Assembly (NCBI GenBank): GCA_020723325.1 | Contig: DYJD01000008.1 | Coordinates: forward strand, 1 to 64,000 | Length of the DNA stretch: 64,000 nt | Reading direction: 5' to 3' | Source: Desulfosudis oleivorans | GTDB lineage: Bacteria > Desulfobacterota > Desulfobacteria > Desulfobacterales > SURF-7 | Shown here: in pieces, positions 56,683 through 63,678 of the stretch | How the letters are laid out: the number at the start of each line of letters is the position of its first letter | Numbering within the stretch: position 1 is the first letter of the stretch | The notes under the pieces: model-generated | What the model was told of the DNA's origin: nothing | Database searches by the model: none | The model's input: the letters and a program-made list of their open reading frames with translations, nothing else | Made by a program: the position numbers and the translations under genes

Positions 56683-56710
56683 AAAAAGGCCCTGAAAGAT
56701 CCAGGGCCTT
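56683..56710 (-). terminator. Rho-independent terminator of dsrC
   Basis: Read on the minus strand, AAGGCCCTG and CAGGGCCTT form a 9-base perfect stem with a 7-base loop, followed by TTTTT. It is 29 bases past the dsrC stop. Confidence 0.9.
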
Positions 56711-56739: not shown

Positions 56740-57057
56740 TTATACGCATCCGGTCGGTTTGGGAAGACCGGCCATCTTACAAGCTCCCTTACCCGGCCCT
56801 GAGGGGAAGAGTTCATAAATATGTTTCAGTTTGAACGAGGTCAGCTTGGAAAGAACCCGCACCATGGGAGCAATACCGTTCTTCTTATAGTAGTCTTGAA
56901 GAATATTGATCACCTTCCAGTGTTCATCATTGAGCTCATCAATGCCTTCCTGCTCTTTGACGTACATGACCCAATTTTTTGACCATGAATTGAAGTCAAG
57001 GATGAAACCATCTTCATCGATCTGAAATTTTTCGCCGTTGAATTCGACTTCCGCCAT
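56740..57057 (-). CDS. dsrC: Sulfur carrier protein DsrC
   Basis: A 105-residue DsrC, the substrate-carrier of dissimilatory sulfite reductase. It carries the sulfur of sulfite as a trisulfide between its two C-terminal cysteines, which membrane or soluble reductases then reduce. Both are present: Cys93 (GKGACKMAG) and the penultimate Cys104 (TGCV), 11 apart. That separates true DsrC from RspA and TusE relatives. The core VEFNGEKFQIDEDGF and HWKVINILQDYYKKNGIAPM are typical. AAAGGAGG precedes the ATG. It has its own promoter and terminator, and follows the Flx/Hdr operon. Confidence 0.96.
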   Translation of the reverse strand: MAEVEFNGEKFQIDEDGFILDFNSWSKNWVMYVKEQEGIDELNDEHWKVINILQDYYKKNGIAPMVRVLSKLTSFKLKHIYELFPSGPGKGACKMAGLPKPTGCV

Positions 57058-57232: not shown

Positions 57233-58078
57233 TTAGTATTCCCGTGGCGTCATGTTAATCTGATCCAGTGTGAATACCGGGCCGTCCTTGCAAACGAATT
57301 CCTTGCCGATATTGCAGCGACCGCACATGCCGAATCCACATTTCATGCGGTTTTCAAGGCTCATGATGATATGATCATGGGCATAACCAAGCTTTTCAAG
57401 CACCGGCTGGGTGAATTTGATCATAATGGGCGGACCGCAAACAATGGCATAGGTATTTTCATCGCCTTGGGGCGCCTTTTGTTCCGTGATGGGTGGGACA
57501 AAGCCCACATTGTATTTCCAGTCGGGATCATCCGTGCGGTCCACGGTGATATGCATGTTGATGTCATCGCGTTTTTCCCATTCGATCAACTCCTGCTTAT
57601 ACAGCAGCATGCCGGGCGAACGGGCACCATATACCACATCAATGGTGCCGAATTTGGAGCGATTGGCCGGATCCAACATGTAAACGATGGAAGAACGCAG
57701 GGTGGTAAAAGCAAAGCCGCCGCCCACAATCAGAATGTTCTTGCCTTCCAATTTTTCCCAGGGATACCAGTTGCCCAAAGGACCGCGAATCCCCATGACA
57801 TCCCCCACCTTCATGTTGTGGAGATGATTGGTGACAAGTCCGGCCTTGTTGACGGTGAACATGACAAAACCTTTTTCCACCGGTGAGGAGGCAATGCCGA
57901 TGGGAATCTCACCTTTGCCGGGAATGGAAAGTTCGCCGAACTGGCCGGCTTTATATGCGTATTTGGCTTCATCTTGGGGATTCAGAAATACAAATTTAAA
58001 TGTCTTCAGATTTTTATCTTCGGTTTCAGTGATGATTTGATCAATGCGAACCGGATAGGGTAAATATGGATTTTGCAC
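57233..58078 (-). CDS. flxA: FlxA-like NAD(P)H:acceptor FAD/2Fe-2S subunit
   Basis: About 281 residues from a GTG at 58078, chosen for AAAGGGAGG just before it; no ATG fits. A ferredoxin reductase-like chain that passes electrons from NADH through FAD to a 2Fe-2S cluster. The FAD domain comes first, then the NAD site GGGFAFTTLRSS, and a C-terminal cluster site CGFGMCGRC...C, as in PyrK and sulfhydrogenase gamma subunits. It is last in the hdrA-flxDCBA operon. FlxA is the NADH-facing end of the complex. Confidence 0.88.
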   Translation of the reverse strand: MQNPYLPYPVRIDQIITETEDKNLKTFKFVFLNPQDEAKYAYKAGQFGELSIPGKGEIPIGIASSPVEKGFVMFTVNKAGLVTNHLHNMKVGDVMGIRGPLGNWYPWEKLEGKNILIVGGGFAFTTLRSSIVYMLDPANRSKFGTIDVVYGARSPGMLLYKQELIEWEKRDDINMHITVDRTDDPDWKYNVGFVPPITEQKAPQGDENTYAIVCGPPIMIKFTQPVLEKLGYAHDHIIMSLENRMKCGFGMCGRCNIGKEFVCKDGPVFTLDQINMTPREY

Positions 58079-58089
58079 AGTGCCTCCCT

Positions 58090-59166
58090 TTATTTTTTTA
58101 GCGCGCAAGTATCGGCACCCGCGGAATAGCTGTTCATGATATCGCATACTTTACGAATATCAATATTGACCGGACAGGAGCGGATGCAGCGACCGCAGCC
58201 CACACACATGATGCCGTCTTCATATTTATCCAGGAAGTATTTCAGTTTATGCATGAAGCGTTGGCGCACACGCTGAACTTTGGTTCCGCGCGGATTATGG
58301 CCGGTGGTATGAATCGTAAACAACGGGTACATACAACTATCCCAGGTTTTCATGCGCTTGCCGCATTTGGCATGGGTCTCATCCTGAATGTCAAAGCACC
58401 AACAGGTCGGGCAAACATAGGTACATGTCCCGCAATTGATGCAGGCAAAGGCTACTTCTTCCCAGAAATCAGCTTCGTAAAGGGACATGATGGACTGGCG
58501 CTGAATATTATCAAAGGCAACTGTAGCGCGGATTTGTTTTTCAGCAGACGCTTTCAACTCGGCAATCTGTTTTTCACCTGCGGCACCGGCCTCGGTTTCC
58601 CAGGCAGCGCTTTTTGCAAAGGCAGCGCCTTTGTCGGTCAGGATTTTGGCAAGATAATGGTTGCCGGTATCCACCAGCAATACATCCAGACCGTTTTCGT
58701 CAAAAGGACCGGATTTGGTGCTGGTGCTGAAATCAAGGGCACTGGGCGTGTTCACTGCAAGACCGATAAACGTACAGGCTTCGTAGGCATCGCACCAGTA
58801 CGGGTCACGATATTCCGGAGTATCGAAATTTTTCTTCACCAGTAAAAAGGCGGCGGCATCGTACGGGCGGATGCCGATGATGGCCCTTGGGGCGTAGTCC
58901 TTTTGTGGAACCTGCATCTGGTTGCACAATTCACTATTTTCATCCGTGGTAAAGACCATCATGACTTCCTGGGGTGGGAAGGCAATGGATTTGGGGGATA
59001 GGCGCGTATCGGTCGCCGTCATGTCCGGCATTGCATCCGGGCCCAGTGCCTGAAATTCGCTGAAGCCTTTGTCTTTCACTTGGACCGGGCCGTACAGACG
59101 GTAGGCCTTGTGCGCCTTTTGGATACCGCCGGCCCAGTCTTTTTTATCAATTTTTAGGACCTTCAT
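58090..59166 (-). CDS. flxB: FlxB-like 4Fe-4S electron-transfer subunit
   Basis: A 358-residue protein of the sulfhydrogenase-beta/FlxB family. Two cluster sites are near the C-terminus: CINCGTCTYVCPTCWCFD and CVGCGRCIRSCPVNI. The first half is the wide alpha-beta domain typical of the family (VKKNFDTPEYRDPYWCDAYEAC). It relays electrons between FlxA and FlxC. AGGCAGGAAC precedes the ATG. Confidence 0.87.
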   Translation of the reverse strand: MKVLKIDKKDWAGGIQKAHKAYRLYGPVQVKDKGFSEFQALGPDAMPDMTATDTRLSPKSIAFPPQEVMMVFTTDENSELCNQMQVPQKDYAPRAIIGIRPYDAAAFLLVKKNFDTPEYRDPYWCDAYEACTFIGLAVNTPSALDFSTSTKSGPFDENGLDVLLVDTGNHYLAKILTDKGAAFAKSAAWETEAGAAGEKQIAELKASAEKQIRATVAFDNIQRQSIMSLYEADFWEEVAFACINCGTCTYVCPTCWCFDIQDETHAKCGKRMKTWDSCMYPLFTIHTTGHNPRGTKVQRVRQRFMHKLKYFLDKYEDGIMCVGCGRCIRSCPVNIDIRKVCDIMNSYSAGADTCALKK

Positions 59167-59187: not shown

Positions 59188-60135
59188 TTATTTAATGAAA
59201 TCCTCGGGATCATTTGGTTTAAAAGTATCCAACGGCGGCCGCACATCCAGCGACAGCCCGGCTTCCCAGCCATAGAGCTCAAAGGCGTCTTTTTCCAGCT
59301 TTTTGGTAAAGGCCCGCATATTAATGTTCACCGGGCAGGCTCGTTGGCATGCGCCGCAGTCGGTGCAGCGGCCGGCGCAATGGTAAGCCCTTAGAAAATG
59401 AAAGGTGCGGGTGTCGATGGGGTCCAGGGTCTTGCCTACCCATTGGGGTCGGGATTCATCCACGAAACAAGTGGGGCAAAAGCAAAGGGGGCAAGCATTC
59501 CGGCAGGCATAACAACGCACACAGGGGGCCAAAAGCTCTTCAAAAAATTGCCATTTTTGCGCAGGCGTCATGGCTTCCACTTGCCGAACCTCGGCATAGC
59601 GATCAACATCTTTTTGTTCTTCTACCAACTCGGCGGCAAGTTCATCATAGATCACCGGATTGCGGTGGATGCAGACCGCACAGTTTTCCTGAATAACATC
59701 GGCTTTTGTCAGAGTTTGACTTGCCCCCCCGCCTGCAATGGTGATTTTATCGCCTTGCTCGCCGACGGTTTCAATTTCCTGCTGGAATTGGGCAGCGATT
59801 TTACGGCGGTCGATCATGCCCTGGCAGGGGATACCGATGATATAGAGTTGTTCCCGCTTGATCTTATTCTCGATAATGTGGGTAACAAGGTTGCGGCTAT
59901 CACAACCCTTGGCGATAATTCCGATTTTTTCCTTGCGGTCGGTTACATAATTGGCAAGGTTGATGCCGCAATTGCTGTCCCACACAAGCTTATCAACATC
60001 AGCCGGATTTTTGATGAAACAGGGTTCGTTCATCATGGGCAGGCTGCCTTTGCGGAAACCAATGATCATGTCCACCCGGCATTCCTGTAGTAGCCGGCCG
60101 GCTATTTTTTTTATTTTGTCTGTGTATGCTGACAT
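59188..60135 (-). CDS. flxC: FlxC-like 4Fe-4S electron-transfer subunit
   Basis: A 315-residue protein with CVRCYACRNACPLCFCPTC and CAGRCTDCGACQRACPVNI, two ferredoxin-like sites, behind an N-terminal domain with IIGFRKGSLPMM and IAKGCDSRNLVTHI like the F420 hydrogenase beta family. FlxC joins FlxB to the MvhD-like subunit. The start is one base after the flxD stop (TAACATG). Confidence 0.87.
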   Translation of the reverse strand: MSAYTDKIKKIAGRLLQECRVDMIIGFRKGSLPMMNEPCFIKNPADVDKLVWDSNCGINLANYVTDRKEKIGIIAKGCDSRNLVTHIIENKIKREQLYIIGIPCQGMIDRRKIAAQFQQEIETVGEQGDKITIAGGGASQTLTKADVIQENCAVCIHRNPVIYDELAAELVEEQKDVDRYAEVRQVEAMTPAQKWQFFEELLAPCVRCYACRNACPLCFCPTCFVDESRPQWVGKTLDPIDTRTFHFLRAYHCAGRCTDCGACQRACPVNINMRAFTKKLEKDAFELYGWEAGLSLDVRPPLDTFKPNDPEDFIK

Positions 60136-60136
60136 G

Positions 60137-60568
60137 TTAGGCTACCTTTGTTTCATGCTTGGCAAATGTTGTATTGGGGCCTAACGCCTTGACCGTTTCC
60201 GTAACTTCCGTGACCACACGCACAAATTTGGTGGATTCGGCCGAGGAGACCCATGAGAAATGGAGGCGTCCGGGCTCAACCCCCATGTGTTCCATCAGGT
60301 TGTTAAAAAGAGCGAATTTACGTCGGGCATGATAATTACCTTCCAGGTAATGACATTCACCGGGATGTCACCCGGATACCCAAACCCCGTCGGCGCCTTC
60401 CCGCAGGGCCGCCAGGGCAAATTTGGGGCTCATCCGGCCGGTGCAGGGGATGCGGATGACGCGAATATTCGGCGGGTACTGCATTCGGCTGACACCTGCC
60501 AGATCAGCAGCGCCGTAGCTGCACCAGTTGCACAAAAAGCTGACAATTTTCGGTTCCCATTCAGACAT
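60137..60568 (-). CDS. flxD: FlxD/MvhD subunit, selenocysteine-containing
   Basis: Read with UGA at 60370-60368 as selenocysteine this is a 143-residue MvhD-family iron-sulfur protein, which passes electrons from Flx proteins or hydrogenase to HdrA. It shows [15 protein letters not shown] (Cys13, Cys16), Cys42 in IPCTGRM, then VSG-U67[11 protein letters not shown], where U replaces the usual Cys. The C-terminal part ([20 protein letters not shown]) is normal. Ending at the UGA would give only 66 residues. AAGGAGATT precedes the ATG at 60568; an in-frame extension to 60637 is less likely. Operon position between hdrA and flxC. Confidence 0.9.
60335..60370 (-). other. Selenocysteine UGA and SECIS-like hairpins in flxD
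   Basis: UGA is at 60370-60368. TGACAT (60370-60365) can pair with ATGTCA (60356-60351), and ATTACC (60351-60346) with GGTAAT (60340-60335) around the loop TGGAA. Both directly follow or include the codon, where bacterial SECIS elements lie. Which of them SelB reads is not decided by sequence alone. Confidence 0.7.
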
Positions 60569-60633: not shown

Positions 60634-63600
60634 TCATCCCGCCTCATGCATTGTGAAAATCTGGGCGAAAATTTGATCGTTGTCAAAACCCTTTAAATGA
60701 ATGGCGCCGCTGCGGCAGGAGGCCACACAGAGTCCGCACCCCTTGCACAGGACCGGGTTGATCTCGGCTTTGCCGGTAAAGGGACCCTTTTCCGAATAGG
60801 CAGGGGCGGAATACGGGCAAATGGCAACACATACACCGCAGGCGCTGCAAATGGACGGGTTGGTTTTGGCCACGGTTCCACTGGTGTGGATTTTTTCCCG
60901 GGCCAGCAAGGTTACTGCTCTAGATGTGGCGGCCTTGGCCTGGGCCACGGATTCATCAATGGGTTTGGGATAATGGGCCAAACCGCACAGGAAGACGCCG
61001 CTGGTGGCAAATTCCGATGGACCCAGCTTGGCATGCCTTTCCACAAAGAAGCCGTCTTCGTTCATGGGAATCTTGAAGAATTGCGCCAATTGCTCATCCC
61101 GGTTGGGAACGATGGCGGTTGCCAGGGTTAATAGGTCAGTCTCGATTTCCAGCGGCCGTCCCAGCACATGGTCCATGACTTGAACCAGCAACCGATCGTT
61201 CTGCAAGGATACTTCCGGTTTTTGGGTCAGGGAATAGCGGATGAAGATGACCCCGGCTTCCCGGGCTTGTTTGTACAGATATTCCCGCTCGCCGTAAGTG
61301 CGGATATCTCGGTATATAACAAATACGTTCATGGCGGGGTTTAGCTTTTTCAGGGCCAGCGCATTTTCCACGGAATGCGTGCAACAAACCCGTGAACAAT
61401 AGGGACGGTTCGGCTCCCGTGACCCCACACATTGAATAAAAACCGCACAGGTCATGCTGGCAAGGGCCGGGTCGGCCGCCATCAGCTTCTTATCCAGATC
61501 CAGGCTGGTGATGATGCGGGGATCTTGCCCATAGGCATATTCCGTGGGCTTATAAGGGGCTGCGCCCGTGGCCACCACCGCCACACCGTGCTCAACCACC
61601 TGCTTGTTCTCACCGGTTGCAAGGGTGGTCTTGAAATTTCCGACAAAGCCTTCCACCTGGGAAAGCTTGGTGTTAAGGTGCACTTGAATCTTATCATTCT
61701 CACGGACAGACCGGATGAGGGCCGACAGATTTTCCTGCACGCTTTCACCCTTGGCGGTTTTTTGAATATTCAGCGCTTGGCCGCCCAACTGCTCTTTTTG
61801 CTCGATTAGATGGGTCTGATAGCCTTGATTGGCAAAGCTCAGGGCCGTGGTCAAGCCGGAAATACCGCCGCCGATGACCAGGGCGGTTTGATTTACCTGC
61901 AATTCCGCCTCTTCCAGGGGAGCGGTCAGGGCCACTTTGGAAACCGCCATGCGCACCAAGTCTTTGGCTTTTTGGGTGGCCAGATCCGGGTTATGCTTGT
62001 GCACCCAGGAATTATGGTTGCGGATATTGGCCATTTCAAAAAGGTATTTGTTCAAGCCGGCATTGATGAGGGTCTCCTGGAACAGGGGCTCATGGGTTTT
62101 GGGTGTACAGGCCGCCACCACAATCCGGTTCAGGTTTTTTTCCTTGATAAGCTGGACGATATTGGCCTGGGTATCCTGGGAACAGGCATACAAATTATCG
62201 GCCGTGTATTCCACATAGGGAAGTTTGGCGGCGTATTCAGCCACACTGGGAACATCCACGGTTCCGGCGATATTGGTGCCGCAACGGCACACGAAAACGC
62301 CGATGCGCGGACGTTCACCGGCAATATTGATTTCCGGCACGATTTCCGGAGTCTTGGTCAGGGTATTGCGGGCGGTTGTCAGCAATTCACCGGCGGCCTC
62401 GGCTGCGGCACTGGCGTCAATGACCGACTGGGGGATATCCTTGGGGCCTTGGAAGGCGCCGCAGACAAAAATGCCTTTGCGGGAGGTCTGGACTGGTGCA
62501 AAGGAGTCGGTTTGACAGAAATTGCCGCTGGTGAGTTTGATCCCCAGCTTGTCCGCCAACGCCATGGTTTGTTTGCTGGTTTCAAGGCCGATGGAGAGCA
62601 CCACCATGTCAAAGACCTCGGTCTTGACTTCTCCGGCTTCGGACACATAGCGCAGTTCCAGATCATCGGTGCCCAGGACTGGTTTGATGGTATGCACCCT
62701 ACTGCGCACAAAGCGGATCCCATGTTTTTCACGGGCCGCATCGTAGTAGCGCTCGAATTCCTTGCCGTGGGTGCGCATATCCATGAAAAAAATAGCGCAG
62801 TCCAGATCTTCGCCTACATGTTCCTTGGCAATGACGGCTTCTTTGATGGCATACATGCAGCAGACCGATGAACAATAGGAATGATCGCATTTGTTCATAT
62901 CCCGTGAACCCACACACTGGAACCAGGCGATCTTTTTTGGTTCCTTATGATCCTTGGAACGGCGGGCTACATGCCCCGCGGTGGGACCCGAAGCTGAGAG
63001 AATGCGCTCGAATTCCATGGATGTGACCACATTGGGATGGCTGGCGTAGTTGTAATTATCAAACGCCGACGGATCAAACGGAGTAAAACCCGGGGATAAA
63101 ATCACCGAGCCCACCTGTAAGCTGATGGTTTGCTCTTTTTGATCATAATCAATGGCTTCAGCCGGGCAGACTTTTTTGCAGTTGCCGCATTTCCCCTTGG
63201 TCAGATAAACGCATGCCTCGGGATCGATGCTGTATTTCAAAGGCACCGCCTGGGCGTATTCCACATAGATGGCTTTGCGTTTGGCCAGACCGCTGTTATA
63301 GGTGTCGACGATTTTTTTCGGGCATTTTTCAGCGCAGGCCCCGCAGCCCACACACTTGTTTACGTCCACATAGCGTGGGCGCTGGCGGAGTTTTACCTGG
63401 AAATTGCCCGCTTCTCCGTCAATGGATTCAATGTCACACAAGGTTTTAAGTTCAATGTTTAGATGCCGGCCGACCTCGACCAGTTTGGGCGAGATAATTC
63501 ACATGGCGCAGTCGTTGGTCGGAAAGGTCTTGTCCAATTGGGACATGACCCCGCCGATGGACGGCCCTTTTTCAACCAAGTAAACATAATAACCAGAATC

Positions 63601-63678
63601 GGCCAGATCCAAGGCGGATTGCATACCGGCAATTCCCCCCCCGACGACCATTACGGAGCCGATGACGTCTTTTGACAT
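60634..63678 (-). CDS. hdrA: Long HdrA-like flavoprotein, selenocysteine-containing
   Basis: Read with UGA at 63501-63499 as selenocysteine, a 1014-residue HdrA, the FAD/Fe-S hub of heterodisulfide reductase-type electron bifurcation. The N-terminus has the dinucleotide site [20 protein letters not shown], then [19 protein letters not shown]60[12 protein letters not shown], where U replaces a conserved Cys. Cluster sites [12 protein letters not shown] (from 109) and CGNCKKVCP follow. A second HdrA-like unit starts near 594 ([11 protein letters not shown]) and ends with [12 protein letters not shown] and [12 protein letters not shown]. The tandem FQCVGSR (about 250) and IQCVGSR (about 748) show duplication. 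ATG 63678 is the likely start, with AGGAGAA near. It leads the operon. Confidence 0.9.
63475..63501 (-). other. Selenocysteine UGA and SECIS-like hairpin in hdrA
   Basis: UGA is at 63501-63499. Five bases later CTCGCCC pairs with GGTCGAG (63493-63475) with one mismatch and a five-base loop. The reading frame is open for 59 codons upstream to the ATG at 63678 and for 954 downstream, with HdrA similarity on both sides. Confidence 0.75.

Follow-up and report, generated by a model that had tools for sequence, protein, structure and literature searches.

We assign a probability of roughly 0.87 to the reading that flxD, a minus-strand gene in a 64,000-nucleotide stretch of Desulfosudis oleivorans DNA (the window), encodes a 143-residue selenoprotein with selenocysteine (Sec) at UGA codon 67, that this protein is a connector to HdrA, and that Sec is kept at one site in each of the two proteins because each would make the other useful, a reason suggested by the statistical coupling of the sites. 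The coupling of the two Sec sites is the element for which we found no earlier statement; a Sec-containing HdrA and a Sec-containing delta subunit in one operon were already known. To learn what Sec gains over Cys where electron-bifurcating enzymes have Fe-S or thiol sites, natural Sec/Sec and Cys/Cys enzymes, sometimes found in one genome, together with a few mixed pairs, provide a ready comparison. The HdrA-FlxD operon is easily misannotated because gene callers that stop at UGA split both proteins.

An in-frame UGA codon in flxD

The following features were assigned to flxD.
60137..60568, minus strand: flxD, FlpD/MvhD-family subunit of 143 codons, selenoprotein (translation with one TGA; PF02662; PDB MvhD 5odc_D)
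60368..60370, minus strand: UGA codon 67 of flxD, read as Sec (translation, relatives, collected FlpD genes)
60335..60351, minus strand: SECIS-like hairpin of flxD, bacterial type, 7 pairs, loop GGA (fold; comparison of Sec, Cys and recoded sequences)

The translation of flxD (MSEWEPKI...KVA) contained a single internal TGA, at codon 67, and ended at TAA. The initial annotation, which had described an internal UGA preceded by 66 residues in a protein of 143, was exact on this point (minus strand, 60568-60137). It had also called the protein MvhD-like and proposed an alignment with MvhD, which we ran: FlxD matched the PDB MvhD 5odc_D with an E value of 3.9e-49, as well as the MvhD chains of the solved Mvh-Hdr and Fdh-Hdr complexes. 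PF02662 was matched over its whole profile by residues 8-130 (E 1e-53, 181 bits against a cut-off of 22.3), and the MvhD-like assignment thus held. FlxD is an additional member of a known selenoprotein family, that of FrhD, MvhD, and VhuD.

Of 519 related loci, the best 80 were compared, and TGA was found at codon 67 in 80/80; these loci are kin and not independent. When 192 genomes of the class were searched at the protein level, a match at E 1e-60 or better was obtained in 159; among the 150 protein matches listed, 121 had exactly one internal stop, always TGA, and 29 had none (counted by eye). We also collected 149 FlpD genes with a motif admitting a stop, Cys, or Trp at codon 67, a set enriched for Cys forms, and in these the codon was TGA in 69, Cys in 80, and Trp or another stop in 0. 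The motif misses some members of the family, for example a copy in the same genome with Sec at position 16.

The second half of the protein had been described as conserved, and the comparison agreed with this: codons 68-138 were free of stops in 79/79 loci (one incomplete locus was left out), and 67% of the base differences downstream of the UGA fell at third codon positions. Mean identity to flxD of the window was 92% before the UGA and 80% after it. FlxD of the window has Cys at 13, 16, 42, and 72 in addition to U67; positions 13, 16, and 42 were cysteine in nearly all collected FlpD genes, and the constancy of Cys 72 is no test because this residue belonged to the search motif. The statement that relatives have Cys in place of U67 was correct for the solved methanogen MvhDs in the alignment and for 80/149 FlpD genes, but not for the closest relatives, which have UGA in 80/80 loci. 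By homology, U67 may be a ligand of the FlxD cluster.

A second in-frame UGA codon in hdrA

The gene upstream of flxD was assigned as follows.
60634..63678, minus strand: hdrA, double-length HdrA of 1014 codons, selenoprotein (translation; HdrA NCBIfam models; PDB 5odc_A)
63499..63501, minus strand: UGA codon 60 of hdrA, DCAM-U-IISP, CxxU position (translation, motif search)
63466..63483, minus strand: SECIS-like hairpin of hdrA, 7 pairs, loop AGGU (fold; comparison of Sec, Cys and recoded sequences)

Codon 60 was the only internal TGA of hdrA, whose other TGA is its true stop. The best NCBIfam matches of the protein were HdrA models, although the double-length form scored below the cut-offs that NF040770, NF041778, and NF041891 set for the whole protein, and the HdrA-type FAD and Fe-S domains and the CxxC/U site were present. 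In the alignment with PDB 5odc_A, U60 stood opposite the second DCxxC cysteine; it replaces the second cysteine of CxxC in the FAD domain of HdrA. The residue of PDB 9sfi_A aligned with U60 is written X, which we read as a putative Sec. The view that two adjacent subunits both have a Sec codon is therefore upheld for UGA-67 of FlxD and UGA-60 of HdrA, both read as Sec from indirect marks.

Hairpins and selenocysteine machinery

The flxD hairpin begins 16 nt past UGA-67, and 23 nt separate the UGA from the loop; the segment marked in the initial annotation began at 60335, the 3′ end of this hairpin. Shuffling of single sequences found neither hairpin unusually stable (z -0.47 for flxD and -0.35 for hdrA), and in place of single-sequence folding, which gave no significance, we compared Sec and Cys windows, with the stem under test taken from the fold of our own sequence. 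The flxD stem was paired at 99.0% in 135 distinct Sec windows, at 81.5% when the Sec windows were recoded at random with synonymous codons, and at 56.6% in 79 Cys windows; it was complete in 93% of Sec windows versus 5% of Cys windows, and the loop started with G in 135/135 distinct Sec windows. The stem offers no covariation because it hardly varies. By this comparison of sequences, Sec genes almost always retain the flxD hairpin, and Cys genes have mostly lost it. For hdrA, pairing was 94.4% in 76 distinct Sec windows, 72.0% after recoding, and 65.0% in 49 Cys windows, with the stem complete in 82% of Sec windows versus 4% of Cys windows; Cys HdrA windows were still somewhat more stable than recoded copies (-6.1 vs -4.6 kcal/mol).

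The genome from which the window derives encodes SelA (605 bits), SelB (385.5 bits), and a tRNA-Sec (51.9 bits versus a gathering score of 47; also called by ARAGORN). SelA was found in 23/24 genomes tested, the sole exception being a genome that is 77% complete, and SelB exceeded the cut-off in 23/24. A Cys/Cys pair of FlxD and HdrA occurred in 16/24 of these genomes, and 15 of the 16 were SelA-positive. The coupling of the Sec sites described below is thus not due to loss of the machinery, since SelA was present in 23 of the 24 genomes.

Taken together, conservation, the hairpin, the machinery, and the Cys alternative indicate that UGA-67 of flxD is very probably Sec. A true stop at this codon would give a FlxD of 66 residues, whether or not translation restarts further on; UGA serves as a stop elsewhere, including the end of hdrA, and an in-frame ATG lies downstream at 60295. 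This is nevertheless very improbable given that coding is conserved past the UGA, that no other type of stop appeared among the matches listed, that other members have Cys at codon 67, and that a hairpin and SelA, SelB, and tRNA-Sec are present. A sequencing error or a decayed gene is more remote again and was rejected, as the same TGA codon was found in 80/80 loci of other genomes (the best 80 of 519). Least probable of all is an altered code in which UGA means tryptophan, which the open frame would fit, as would nothing beyond it; this was rejected because the alternative in 149 FlpD genes is Cys and never Trp, and because UGA still acts as a stop in this genome, where hdrA itself ends in TGA.

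Genes around flxD

The hdrA and flxD genes head an operon-like run of six genes on the minus strand, from 63678 to 56740, in which two genes for 4Fe-4S proteins, a reductase gene, and a gene of the DsrC family follow.
59188..60135, minus strand: flxC-like 4Fe-4S protein, 315 aa (Fer4_8 match)
58090..59166, minus strand: flxB-like 4Fe-4S protein, HydB/AsrA type, 358 aa (profile matches)
57233..58147, minus strand: flxA-like FAD/NAD-binding reductase, HydG/AsrB type, start codon uncertain (profile matches)
56740..57057, minus strand: DsrC/TusE-family protein, 105 aa, at the operon end, two cysteines near the C terminus (PF04358, E 2.1e-37; TIGR03342)
56686..56710, minus strand: terminator-like hairpin past the dsrC-like gene (consensus scan only; 15 terminator-like sites found in the region versus 10.3 expected)

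The gene at 59188..60135 is presumed to be flxC from its position. Fer4_8, a domain that HdrC also carries, occurred in two of the six proteins. The domain profile search found no CCG (HdrB-type) domain in the six minus-strand proteins between 56740 and 63678, and no hydrogenase large or small subunit and no bamB- or bamC-like gene among the six genes. A DsrC-family protein also closes the gene run in relatives, for example at loci L133, L136, L138, and L174.

The divergent gene upstream of hdrA (63906 onward in the window; L131 3906-7529, plus strand) encodes a 1207-aa protein in which an FAD oxidase is joined with Fer4_8 and CCG domains. The CCG domains of this protein are cysteine-rich and of the HdrB/D type, and DUF3683 lies at its N terminus.

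Coupling of the FlxD and HdrA states

The Sec or Cys state of FlxD was compared with that of the nearest HdrA. The HdrA site was located by a direct search for the CxxU motif because whole-HdrA tblastn often broke before the N terminus and reported other places. The first sample comprised 80 stretches in the order of the match listing, containing 81 FlpD genes, and the nearest HdrA motif was sought up to 7 kb away in both directions. Selection by listing order passed over matches less than about 4 kb from the low contig end, along with a few of the last entries. The FlxD/HdrA states were Sec/Sec in 30, Cys/Cys in 17, Cys/Sec in 8, and Sec/Cys in 0, and 25 had no motif; Cys/Cys becomes 18 when a chance TGG match in one row gives way to the real upstream TGC. 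The sample was enlarged by 20 further stretches in listing order, 8 from the same genome, 20 chosen for a stop-free FlxD, and 20 more, of which three were chosen as stop-free and 17 as Sec forms. The resulting 149 rows give no population frequencies because some matches were chosen by FlxD state.

Of the 149 distinct FlpD genes (identical copies were dropped), 104 had an HdrA motif upstream within 7 kb; the rows without one (17 Sec and 28 Cys) were dropped from the count, and two loci with masked letters were unscored. The 104 pairs consisted of 51 Sec/Sec, 38 Cys/Cys, 14 with Cys-FlxD and Sec-HdrA, and 1 with Sec-FlxD and Cys-HdrA, and the part in listing order alone gave 32, 22, 11, and 1, respectively. 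Among the 80 closest loci, 38 had no HdrA motif in the available stretch and were uncounted: 18 with less than about 3.1 kb of upstream sequence and 20 others.

Ten of the 14 Cys-FlxD/Sec-HdrA genes, the main exception to the pairing, belong to one clade with an 'HIGDCHY' FlxD (L139, L153, L202, L204, L207, L211, L212, L221, L225, and L235), in which the Sec HdrA (DCSI-UGA) lies 1.6 kb before the Cys delta subunit. The lone Sec-FlxD/Cys-HdrA pair lies at L175, where a Sec HdrA is also found downstream. At L160 (5594, plus strand) and L179 (6977, minus strand), the FlpD gene has UGA at cysteine 16 (CTW-UGA) and Cys at 67, and HdrA has Sec; the FlxD proteins of these loci are therefore selenoproteins after all. 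Re-scoring them, a post hoc step made after the data had been seen, changed the four counts to 53, 38, 12, and 1. The Fisher p value for coupling was 3e-15 before and 1e-16 after this correction of two rows, kinship being ignored in both.

At L133, L134, L136, and L138, flxD and flxC were present, together with flxBA-dsrC where the sequence reaches, and no HdrA homologue was found in the available sequence; FlxD had Sec in three of these and Cys in one. A further FlpD gene with Sec at cysteine 16 (CCNY-UGA) and Cys at 67 occurs in the genome under study (L093/L233, contig C76), outside the counts; TGA likewise occupies the same-strand HdrA motif there.

To take kinship into account, a quick maximum-likelihood tree was built from the joined FlxD and HdrA stretches, with codon 67 and the HdrA site masked. 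It required 11 state changes for FlxD and 14 for HdrA. In 8 independent supported pairs differing in FlxD, HdrA changed the same way in 6.4 and the opposite way in 0.5 (median p 0.0625); in 9 such pairs differing in HdrA, FlxD changed the same way in 6.1 and the opposite way in 0.0 (median p 0.031). The re-scoring of L160 and L179 gave changes the same way in 7.2/8 and 7.1/9 and the opposite way in none, with a median p of 0.016 in both directions. These sequence comparisons suggest that the coupled switching of the FlxD and HdrA sites is likely real, though it comprises few independent events. The earlier hint about the pairing gains moderate support, the two Sec sites being coupled statistically, and moderately so on the tree; that the pair might tune potentials is suggested by homology.

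As a tentative interpretation, which we hold at somewhat under even odds, Sec in FlxD and HdrA would form one functional unit: selenium at the FlxD cluster would pay only with a Sec HdrA, the sites would switch together, each by its own codon and hairpin, and FlxD could carry Sec at cysteine 16 or 67 without breaking the pairing. A competing explanation of comparable plausibility, likewise short of an even chance, is that the sites have no functional link and co-occur merely through co-inheritance in an operon and a genome-wide liking for selenium. The two genes are adjacent and inherited together, Sec is common in these genomes (4/11 FlpD matches in the genome under study have TGA), the phylogeny-aware signal comes from only 8-9 supported independent pairs, and the published counts of Sec FrhD and HdrA are not everywhere one to one. 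Against this explanation, Cys/Cys and Sec/Sec copies occur within one genome (the genome under study, with Cys/Cys at L232 and Sec/Sec in the window, and those of L240 and L241), and SelA is retained in nearly all tested genomes that have a Cys/Cys pair. Because each gene has a separate hairpin, a switch also requires separate changes in both genes, and three FlpD genes have Sec at the other cysteine while HdrA has Sec.

It is rather unlikely that the Sec and Cys versions are isoforms for differing selenium supply, although Methanococcus maripaludis offers a precedent: under selenium shortage it trades HdrAU and VhuD for Cys forms, by block exchange of hdrAU-vhuD (PMC11097638), and the Cys/Cys hdrA-flxD locus of the genome under study adjoins a tRNA-Sec and a selB gene. 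That Cys locus has other partners than the window, namely a CCG/4Fe-4S protein, an HdrA-redox fusion, and a molybdopterin oxidoreductase, which speaks against such isoforms.

Comparison with known systems

The BamE and BamF proteins of class II benzoyl-CoA reductase are HdrA-like and MvhD-like subunits, and in the Desulfovibrio FlxABCD-HdrABC NADH dehydrogenase/heterodisulfide reductase, HdrA is accompanied by an NAD-binding flavoprotein, two Fe-S proteins, and an FlxD of the MvhD type. The window shares all of the latter components with FlxABCD-HdrABC; it differs in lacking a CCG domain in the six genes, in its double-length HdrA, and in the DsrC-like gene at the end, and the pair of hdrB (CCG-domain) and hdrC genes encoded with hdrA was not found within the six minus-strand genes. 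With the Bam complex it has in common HdrA-like and MvhD-like subunits with Sec in at least one of them, BamE of Desulfococcus multivorans containing Sec (PMC5109826), while bamB and bamC were absent from the six genes.

The kind of arrangement seen here is already known, since a bacterial operon with Sec in both HdrA and the delta subunit (FrhD) was published in 2006: archaea and Deltaproteobacteria were reported to encode the two selenoproteins together, the bacterial hdrA being duplicated (PMC1794560). In Sec-decoding archaea and Deltaproteobacteria, the hdrA-frhD-frhG-frhA operon likewise has a Sec HdrA with a CxxU motif and a Sec delta subunit (PMC1794560; PMC13188914), but it contains hydrogenase genes where the window has FlxC/B/A-like and DsrC-like genes. 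A review lists both the delta subunit and HdrA with CxxU (PMC13188914); FlxD of the window has Sec at GUHPGECHY instead, and the delta-subunit CxxU of that review fits the site of L160, L179, and the copy elsewhere in the same genome. In Desulfobacterium autotrophicum HRM2, also a sulfate reducer of the Desulfobacteraceae, Sec was reported in hdrA1, hdrA2, hdrL1, and hdrL3 and in mvhD1, mvhD2, mvhD3, and mvhD5, and mvhD follows the HdrA/HdrL genes except hdrA4; the available part of that account neither states a pairing rule nor tests one on a tree (PMC2702500).

Some published counts speak against a strict pairing rule. In Table 3 of PMC1794560, the FrhD and HdrA numbers are equal in Syntrophus, Desulfotalea, Syntrophomonas, Carboxydothermus, and Moorella, and they are 8 FrhD to 7 HdrA in Syntrophobacter fumaroxidans and 2 to 1 in Desulfotomaculum reducens; for Geobacter metallireducens the table gives FrhD but no HdrA as a selenoprotein. 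Sec/Cys conversions were counted there for each family separately. D. multivorans has one Sec HdrA and one Sec mvhD (PMC5109826), and since their locus tags are distant, they are apparently not partners, unless a partner UGA was overlooked. A single SECIS element serves both hdrA and frhD in archaea and was offered as a reason for joint Sec insertion (PMC11227280); this reason does not apply here because each gene has its own hairpin. In the literature searched, mostly the main texts of open-access papers, we found neither a claim nor a test that the FlxD and HdrA sites switch between Sec and Cys in a coupled way.

Proposed electron path

From conservation and the machinery present, SelB with Sec-tRNA would read UGA-67, directed by the downstream hairpin. 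By analogy with the solved Mvh-Hdr, Fdh-Hdr, and Elp-Hdr homologues, FlxD is predicted to serve as a connector of the MvhD type, holding a [2Fe-2S] cluster and handing electrons to HdrA, as the [2Fe-2S] cluster of MvhD/ElpC does to the HdrA flavin (PMC12350162; PMC6019823). The operon suggests NAD(P)H as the most likely electron source, with entry via the FlxA/B/C-like proteins. From the FlxD cluster, electrons may pass to the HdrA flavin and divide there, with ferredoxin receiving one branch and a disulfide acceptor the other. Judging from the operon, this acceptor could be the DsrC-like protein, because no CCG domain of the HdrB type was found among the six genes. U67 and U60 would then both lie at metal clusters or redox thiols of one electron path, where Sec at both sites might lower potentials, speed electron transfer, or protect from oxidation, an effect that would need both.

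Other loci in the same genome

Of the 11 FlpD matches in the genome under study (L090-L100), four contain one TGA, and another five are part of long open frames (533-1084 aa). At L232 (851-2890, minus strand, contig C1), a tRNA-Sec and a SelB-family gene adjoin the Cys/Cys hdrA-flxD locus, which is followed by HdrA fused to further redox domains and by a molybdopterin oxidoreductase. This SelB-family gene is the second SelB match over the cut-off in the genome, besides one on contig C92.
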